From assembly GCF_003931855.1 (NCBI RefSeq), contig NZ_CP034248.1:3348001-3412000 (forward strand): a stretch of 64,000 nt of DNA, given 5' to 3'. The notes under the pieces were generated by a model that did no database searches, was not told where the DNA came from, and saw only the letters and a list, made by a program, of their open reading frames with translations. Positions 1 through 59,021 of this stretch are shown here, one piece after another. This DNA comes from Paenibacillus lentus. GTDB taxonomy: Bacteria; Bacillota; Bacilli; Paenibacillales; Paenibacillaceae. Position numbers and translations under genes: made by a program. Every line of letters begins with the position of its first letter. Position 1 is the first letter of the stretch.

Positions 1-37
1 CGCAATCTGGCTGTTTCCGAGAAGGGGGCGTATCTGA
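1..37 (+). CDS. 3' end of an upstream gene, probably an ABC-2 permease (partial)
   Basis: Only the last eleven codons are present, reading AIWLFPRRGRI and ending at a TGA (35-37) that overlaps the ATG of the next gene as ATGA. Such translational coupling suggests one operon. A short hydrophobic stretch followed by a basic tail is common at the end of ABC-2 permeases, and the next gene is such a permease, so a second permease subunit is the likely identity. The remnant is too short to prove it. Confidence 0.4.
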   Translation, partial: AIWLFPRRGRI

Positions 38-57299: not shown

Positions 57300-58628
57300 T
57301 TGAGTTATTCCAAAGAAGACATTTTACGCATTGCCAAAGAAGAGAATGTGCGATTTATCCGTTTGCAATTTACTGATTTGCTCGGAACGATCAAGAACGT
57401 AGAAATTCCTGTCAGTCAATTGGAAAAAGCGCTTGATAACAAAATGATGTTCGACGGATCTTCTATTGAAGGATATGTTCGCATCGAAGAATCCGATATG
57501 TATCTGTACCCGGATCTGGATACTTGGGTTATTTTCCCATGGGTAGCCGAGGATCGTGTGGCACGGCTTATCTGTGATGTTTACATGACGGATGGCACAC
57601 CATTCGGCGGAGACCCGCGCAACATATTGAAGCGCGCGCTGAAAGAAGCGGAAGAAATGGGATATACCGCAATGAATGTAGGTCCAGAACCTGAATTTTT
57701 CCTCTTTAAAACCGATGAAAAAGGCAACCCCACGATGGAACTGAATGACCAAGGCGGTTATTTCGACCTCGCTCCAACGGATCTAGGGGAGAACTGCCGT
57801 CGTGAAATCGTCCTTACCCTCGAAGAAATGGGCTTTGAAATCGAAGCGTCCCACCACGAAGTAGCTCCAGGTCAACACGAGATTGATTTTAAATATGCCG
57901 ATGCTATTAAGGCGGCTGACCAAATTCAAACATTCAAGCTCGTCGTTAAGACAATCGCTCGTCAGCATGGTTTGCATGCGACCTTCATGCCTAAACCGTT
58001 GTATGGTGTGAGCGGCTCCGGAATGCACTGCCATCAATCCCTATTCAAAGGGAAAGTGAATGCTTTTTATGACGAAAGTGATGAGCTTGGTCTAAGTAAG
58101 GACGCTCGTCACTACATGGCTGGTATCCTTAAGCATGCTCGTGCATTTGCAGCTGTAACGAATCCGACCGTTAACTCCTACAAACGACTCGTACCCGGAT
58201 ATGAAGCGCCTTGCTATGTAGCGTGGTCATCCAGTAACCGCAGCCCGATGATTCGTATCCCCGCTTCCCGTGGATTGAGCACTCGCGTAGAGGTTCGTAA
58301 CCCGGATCCGGCGGCTAATCCATATTTGGCCTTGGCAGTAATGCTCAGAGCAGGTCTTGACGGTATTAAGAATGAGCTGGAGCTTGTCGCTCCGGTTGAC
58401 CGCAACATCTATGTGATGTCAGAGGAAGAGCTGATCGAAGAAGGCATTCCAAGCCTGCCATCAGACCTTAAGGAAGCTTTAAATGAAATGGTTAACAGTG
58501 AAGTTATTTCTGATGCGCTCGGCGAGCACGCCCGCACGCACTTATACGAGCTGAAAGAAATCGAGTGGGACATGTACCGCACCCAGGTTCACGAGTGGGA
58601 ACGTGACCATTATATGAGATTGTATTAA
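57300..58628 (+). CDS. glnA: glutamine synthetase, type I
   Basis: A 442-residue enzyme making glutamine from glutamate, ammonia and ATP. It has the N-terminal [38 protein letters not shown] (latch region), metal/ATP segments [10 protein letters not shown] and [37 protein letters not shown] and [20 protein letters not shown]. It lacks the adenylylation Tyr context of enteric enzymes, as in Bacilli, where GlnR and glutamine feedback control it. TTG 57300 follows AGGAGAGAG. Confidence 0.97.
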
Positions 58629-58736: not shown

Positions 58737-58763
58737 AAAAGACGCTCAATGAGCGTCTTTTCC
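58737..58763. terminator. terminator of the small minus-strand gene, possibly bidirectional
   Basis: AAAAGACGCTCA-AT-GAGCGTCTTTT with A and T runs on the two sides. It lies ten bases beyond the stop of the small gene at 58771. Confidence 0.8.
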
Positions 58764-58770
58764 TAACTTA

Positions 58771-58875
58771 TTACCAATGATGACGACGATGTTTTTTTTT
58801 CTTATGCTTTGCAATAACCAACGCTTTCTGACCGGGGCGAAGTTTTATGACGCATACTTTTTTACTTGAGGACAT
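58771..58875 (-). CDS. 34-residue very basic protein
   Basis: ATG 58875 follows a near-ideal ribosome binding site AAGGAGGTGATAG. The product starts MSSSKKVCVIKLRPGQKALV and ends with KHKKKKHRRHHW: eighteen of its last nineteen residues are mostly Lys, Arg and His. A terminator follows directly, so it is a complete monocistronic gene. It is too short for routine gene callers. I do not recognise the family. A nucleic-acid- or spore-associated peptide is a guess based on charge. Confidence 0.65.
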   Translation of the reverse strand: MSSSKKVCVIKLRPGQKALVIAKHKKKKHRRHHW

Positions 58876-59021
58876 AACTATCACCTCCTTTTCAGTTACA
58901 ATTTATGATTCAGGGAATTAAATTGATTGGACGGTGCTTACTTTGTGCTTTATGCTGCTGGCAGGATTTTCGTTGCTAGCGCTTACAATTACGGTTAGGA
59001 TAATTATTGAGGTGAATGGGG

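Follow-up and report, generated by a model that had tools for sequence, protein, structure and literature searches.

The window, a 64,000-nucleotide stretch of the Paenibacillus lentus genome (contig NZ_CP034248.1), carries on its minus strand a 34-codon gene for the peptide MSSSKKVCVIKLRPGQKALVIAKHKKKKHRRHHW (58771..58875), with its ATG at 58875-58873 and its TAA at 58773-58771; it has homologues and is under purifying selection. An earlier note, made from the letters of the window, had placed an overlooked gene for a basic peptide at these coordinates and left the strand unstated. The coordinates held and the strand was found to be the minus strand, on which 58771-58875 encodes MSSSKKVCVIKLRPGQKALVIAKHKKKKHRRHHW followed by TAA; the plus-strand frame at the same positions (LPMMTTMFFF...) is no likely gene. 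The near-perfect ribosome binding site described there corresponds to the Shine-Dalgarno sequence AAGGAGGTGAT (58880..58890, minus strand), an 11-base match to the anti-Shine-Dalgarno core that ends 4 nt before the ATG, and the start, the stop and the terminator of its own that had been claimed for the gene are likewise in place, the last as a terminator-like hairpin AAAAGACGCTCATTGAGCGTCTTTT with a T-rich tail 3' of the gene (58737..58761, minus strand). As this hairpin is near-palindromic, it could also serve the glnA side. There is also an in-frame GTG (58884), from which an alternative product of 37 aa would result; its position inside the Shine-Dalgarno sequence makes it an unlikely start. 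Upstream lies a promoter of the mother-cell type, GTCCAATC and CATAAATTG separated by 17 nt (58899..58932, minus strand), which combines a GTCC box with a sigE/sigK-like -10 element. The peptide gene is convergent with an open reading frame of 442 aa at 57300-58628 (glnA according to the earlier note) and divergent from a plus-strand open reading frame that starts at 59016.

The reading as a gene is supported by the relatives, as the frame is kept in 13 of the 40 genus-level genomes (E 0.001), 44 of 392 genomes of the order and, when scanned with a 51-member alignment at E 0.01, 36 of 398 genomes of the class, where two of the 36 (G097 and G488) match weakly, within long frames whose sequences were left unfetched. 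The single sequence alone retrieved six best relatives in the genus, down to E 0.001, that are 44-75% identical, and of 59 relatives, with the genome of the window among them, 14 gave strong matches at E below 1e-8 to a 13-member alignment, which also yielded the genus and order counts. A scan of named genomes with the alignment confirmed eight loci, carried by Paenibacillus fonticola, P. albidus (three), Fontibacillus phaseoli, P. oralis, P. anaericanus and P. cellulositrophicus. The copy of Alicyclobacillus acidocaldarius DSM 446 (G458, C3:31994-32080) has the same place as the one in the annotated plasmid pAACI02, whose record has an incomplete gene table and lists no gene there. pAACI02 was the sole plasmid record with a copy, three further family members used as queries giving no other. 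A phage origin was rejected, since the phage records had no match to the window peptide and PHROGs gave none for the family.

We extracted 92 homologues with their starts from spore-forming Bacilli, after removal of L140, a sequence with an internal stop and no start, and of a false match (E 0.34) in L162. The dropped L140 (G130:C28:116-214) has its in-frame stop just upstream of the core, possibly as a decaying gene or through a sequencing error. The members start with ATG (78), GTG (8) or TTG (6), are 26-96 and mostly 27-50 aa long, and in 88 of 92 cases follow a Shine-Dalgarno sequence of at least five matching bases. All 92 have an xG[Q/E/H/D] turn (79 with PG, 83 with GQ) and a net charge of at least +6 (median +11), 74 contain a Cys, and a terminator-like structure 3' of the stop accompanies 37 of them against a shuffle mean of 1.45. 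Residue G15 is invariant and L12 near-invariant in the 13-member and then in the 51-member alignment. The test of frame conservation in relatives, named beforehand in the earlier note as the one that could refute the gene, showed the frame conserved as protein: in 32 close pairs of equal length, which share sequences and are not independent, the pooled pN is 0.083 and pS 0.324 (pN/pS ~0.26), and one pair alone exceeds 1. Several copies per genome occur, with three in G372, four in G349 and three in tandem in G343; the tandem genes (L104, G343:C39:63381-63890) lie ~200-230 nt apart and have weaker promoter boxes. In a 96-aa relative (L184, G415) the hairpin unit with its xG[Q/E] turn seems to occur in three repeats containing Cys and His, as though the peptide had undergone multiplication inside one protein.

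The family core reads K-VIVV-L-(K/R/H)PGQK-(A/V)IVVCK, with two strands of alternating hydrophobic residues on either side of L-(K/R/H)-P-G-Q-(K/R/S/T), and is flanked by basic, His-rich tails. In the window peptide a basic N-terminal tail precedes the predicted beta-hairpin core (residues 5-23) and a basic, His-rich C-terminal tail follows it; its single Cys is residue 8 in the first strand, as against a position near the end of the second strand in most aligned members. An AlphaFold2 model of the window peptide, built together with seven homologues, has its strands at residues 5-11 and 17-23 with a mean pLDDT of 91 over residues 11-20, the overall mean from this 8-sequence alignment being 72.8 and the pTM 0.31. 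The peptide most likely folds as a short amphipathic beta-hairpin whose two strands surround an L-x-PGQ turn. The family is without a model in Pfam, NCBIfam and PHROGs, where the searches with 51 members gave only single-member matches (best E 0.01, 0.029 and 0.026, respectively), and TIGR01732 (YjcZ family) had no match at E 0.1 among them. Four sequence-profile matches to the PDB, at E 0.29 or weaker, were taken as chance. A literature search by title and opening of the abstract, largely outside subscription journals, returned no description of the family. Single hypothetical-protein entries for its members may exist in protein databases.

The promoter of the window recurs before the family. 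Among 80 non-redundant upstream regions (92 minus 12 that were too short or at least 75% identical), 40 contain GTCYA-18..21-CATANNNT, whereas 200 dinucleotide shuffles average 0.07 and never exceed 1, and the same two boxes precede none of 211 other genes of the same loci. The gap is 20 in 28 of these 40, 19 in 10 and 21 in 2, and pairs pile up at 19, 20 and 21 when gaps of 3 to 60 are allowed. In the family upstreams 29-42 nt separate CATA from the start codon, and CATANNNTR, the letters of a sigE/sigK-type -10 element, occurs in 58 of the 80 (shuffle mean 6.1; background 7/211); the full two-box promoter is missing from 40 of the upstreams and CATANNNTR from 22. The window has CATANNNTR at promoter distance (58899-58932). 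SpoIIID, a candidate for the GTCC box, has the consensus WWRRACARNY; this consensus or its reverse complement was found at the box in 9 of 80 upstreams (mono-shuffle mean 3.1, maximum 9). The promoter letters recognized by sigE and sigK are CATANNNTA.

Promoters of sigE and sigK have identical -10 elements and differ in one -35 base, according to an excerpt of PMC517825. As an in-genome control we used yabG, the gene of a coat-assembly protease (excerpt of PMC10681294), whose upstreams carry CATANNNTR in 27 of 27 cases and ACC-15..17-CATANNNT in 25 of 27; the sigE control spoIVA has CATANNNTR in 10 and GTCCAA in 11 of 29. The two-box motif is found before neither gene (yabG 0/27, spoIVA 0/29), so that spoIVA does not share the architecture of the peptide promoter. 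The promoter in the window lacks a yabG-like sigK -35 (ACC at a distance of 15-17 nt from CATA) and reads AATCA at that position with GTCC just before it; mAC-15..18-CATANNNT occurs in 12 of the 80 family upstreams. Judged from these letters, the -10 element is of the mother-cell type, because yabG shares CATANNNTR, and the GTCC box is a distinct feature, which may be a -35 variant or a regulator site. The pattern does not separate sigE from sigK, as their -10 elements are reportedly identical and the -35 position departs from the ACC pattern of yabG.

This promoter is common to the peptide genes and to YjcZ-type and YheC/D genes. A set of 59 related genomes contains 156 sites of the pattern GTCCAAT-17..18-CATANNNTR, while the reversed pattern, as control, gave 14; 82 of the 156 (control 2) lie in four genomes of one genus (G043, G050, G054 and G057), and two genomes of one genus have 30 strict sites each. 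We surveyed the downstream genes in 30 search loci and 40 fetched stretches. They include many tiny proteins with the YjcZ core IVLVLFILLVI, assigned partly by eye (L281, L300, L309 and L320 have no TIGR01732 match at E 0.01, and the gene of L110/L267 scored 22.3 bits in one search and 19.9 in another against a cut-off of 21.35), a Cys-rich family of 150-180 aa (CDCCVCPMQCVLEQ...), proteins of 138-145 aa without a known family and, with PF14398 matches at E 1e-64 and 1e-66, two ATP-grasp proteins of the YheC/D type. Several motif sites have no gene behind them, or unrelated ones (glycosyltransferase-like and glucosaminidase-like, assigned by eye). Conversely, the two-box promoter was present in 7 of 30 YjcZ-model loci of Paenibacillales, many of them below the model cut-off. 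One of the seven is a gene in G026 that lies 2.2 kb from a peptide copy and is recognized by the model TIGR01732, 'YjcZ family sporulation protein'.

Some of these sites deserve mention in their own right. In the four genomes rich in sites (L308-L347), arrays of YjcZ-like tiny proteins and Cys-rich CDCCVCPMQCVLEQ proteins follow them, apparently as a large spore-surface regulon. The sole other strict site in the window's genome (L142:1500-1979; G000:C1:1320964 onward) precedes a 138-aa protein (MAVLLQHVTNVPTPITNG...) that has no Pfam or NCBIfam match and is a candidate spore-surface protein; G004 has a near-identical gene (L294) and G024 a diverged one (L307), both behind the same promoter. 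A membrane-like protein of 60-61 aa (MNQILTFFFGLVGGFALTQAPLAGTFLASLEPLVDVIG...; MGQIVSFLGGLIGGYALTEVPLAGTFL...), encoded near peptide copies in two genomes and without a family at cut-off, also follows the two-box promoter (L159:2672, plus strand; L185:2515, minus-strand coordinate).

We used spoIVA, which 268 of the 398 class-sample genomes carry, as a proxy for spore formers. All 36 peptide-bearing genomes carry spoIVA and none of the 130 spoIVA-negative genomes bears the peptide, a count that ignores kinship, so the family occurs in spore formers only by this proxy. It is missing from most sampled spore formers, including most members of the window's family, although the short profile may overlook some, and for this reason the peptide is not a core coat component. 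In genus g20 of the window's family, four of four genomes (G065, G106, G115 and G123) have no SpoIVA match, which suggests a lineage that has lost sporulation.

A frame of 34 codons proves nothing by itself, and as this one is short, overlaps no other annotation and has a terminator hairpin near it, one could suppose that it arose by chance over a conserved element of RNA or DNA and yields no functional peptide. We hold that to be extremely improbable in view of the low pN/pS over the 32 pairs, the protein-level similarity that spans the class despite differing DNA, and the Rfam search, which gave no family at gathering score and seven sub-threshold matches of E 0.38 to 0.69. Frame conservation, purifying selection, terminator-like structures and a conserved promoter take the open reading frame beyond chance; it is a real gene. 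The position of the gene between glnA and the adjoining sensor genes might suggest a leader or regulatory peptide for one or the other, and the gap in which the earlier note had located it is indeed there. The setting proved incidental, as an open reading frame homologous to the window's glnA lies within ~3 kb in only 4 of 55 fetched order-level loci, the window's included. The gene is moreover convergent with glnA, divergent from the next gene and equipped with its own promoter and terminator. Copies of the peptide gene are mobile in position, some of them in tandem (G343) or on a plasmid (A. acidocaldarius), and their varied contexts refute the glnA-linked reading, which is left very improbable, and mean that the function cannot be read from glnA.

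Two further roles would leave the peptide a product of the sporulating mother cell and are both less likely than a role in the coat. It might be a cationic antimicrobial or cannibalism-type peptide that is freed on lysis and disrupts the membranes of competitors. The predicted amphipathic hairpin, the high positive charge, the variable tails, the patchy distribution and the several copies in some genomes would suit such an agent, but any given neighbour cluster occurs in at most 5 of the 55 order-level loci, which leaves no recurrent one that could serve export or immunity; inspection by eye shows neither a signal peptide nor a leader, the core is under purifying selection and exceeds the tails in conservation, and the promoter is kept in company with coat-type and tiny transmembrane sporulation genes, all of which makes this unlikely. 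Rather unlikely, too, is a basic peptide that binds nucleic acid or associates with ribosomes within the mother cell at a late stage of sporulation: the charge found throughout the family and the Lys/Arg/His-rich tails speak for it, but no such domain model is backed by more than one of 51 members, and the conserved part consists of hydrophobic alternating strands, not of the charged tails.

We consider it probable that the gene encodes a stand-alone, tiny cationic sporulation peptide of the mother cell, expressed from a sigE/sigK-type promoter with a GTCC box and probably forming a hairpin of the spore coat. Sporulation control is well supported, and the promoter evidence fits the pointer to spores in the earlier note. 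The placement in the spore envelope is drawn from promoter company, charge and size, and from these we infer a location in the coat. The likeliest job would be that of a small cationic building block or coat glue, given the size, the charge, the predicted hairpin and the promoter company. The sporulating mother cell would express the peptide from its sigE/sigK-type promoter with the extra GTCC box; the product would fold into a short amphipathic beta-hairpin with Lys/Arg/His tails and join the spore envelope, most likely the coat, where the hairpin may pack against another coat protein and the tails may bind an anionic polymer or protein. The sigma factor, the mother-cell compartment and the mode of binding are what we infer in this scheme.

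More tentatively, the cationic beta-hairpin family may be a structural component of the spore envelope across Paenibacillales, Alicyclobacillaceae and other Bacilli, with the GTCC-variant promoter possibly marking a regulon of small, lineage-specific spore-surface genes and the GTCC box being a mother-cell regulator site or a -35 variant unseen in the B. subtilis model. Catalogues of spore coats beyond Bacillus subtilis are poor, and gene callers miss proteins so small; the family motif L-x-PGQK between basic tails offers a handle for finding members, and the promoter signature retrieves further candidate spore genes in Paenibacillus and its relatives.

Among known systems, SpoVM, CmpA and SscA are very small Bacillus mother-cell coat proteins of 26-40 aa, encoded by stand-alone genes and expressed in the mother cell, and the peptide family is likened to them and set apart from them by description. 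SpoVM is an amphipathic helix, and to our knowledge the L-x-PGQ hairpin core is found in none of the three. SpoVM, with 26 aa, is often omitted from annotation (excerpt of PMC3533761). The YheC/YheD proteins (Pfam PF14398) resemble the peptide in that two of their genes lie behind the same promoter motif, and YheD counts in B. subtilis as a base-layer coat protein that interacts with SpoIVA (excerpt of PMC3533761), but they are large ATP-grasp proteins with no apparent homology to it. The YjcZ proteins (NCBIfam TIGR01732, tiny_TM_bacill) are, like the peptide, tiny single-gene sporulation proteins of Bacilli with the two-box promoter in some cases; they are hydrophobic single-span membrane proteins (..IVLVLFILLVI..), whereas the peptide is a charged, predicted beta-hairpin without an evident membrane segment.
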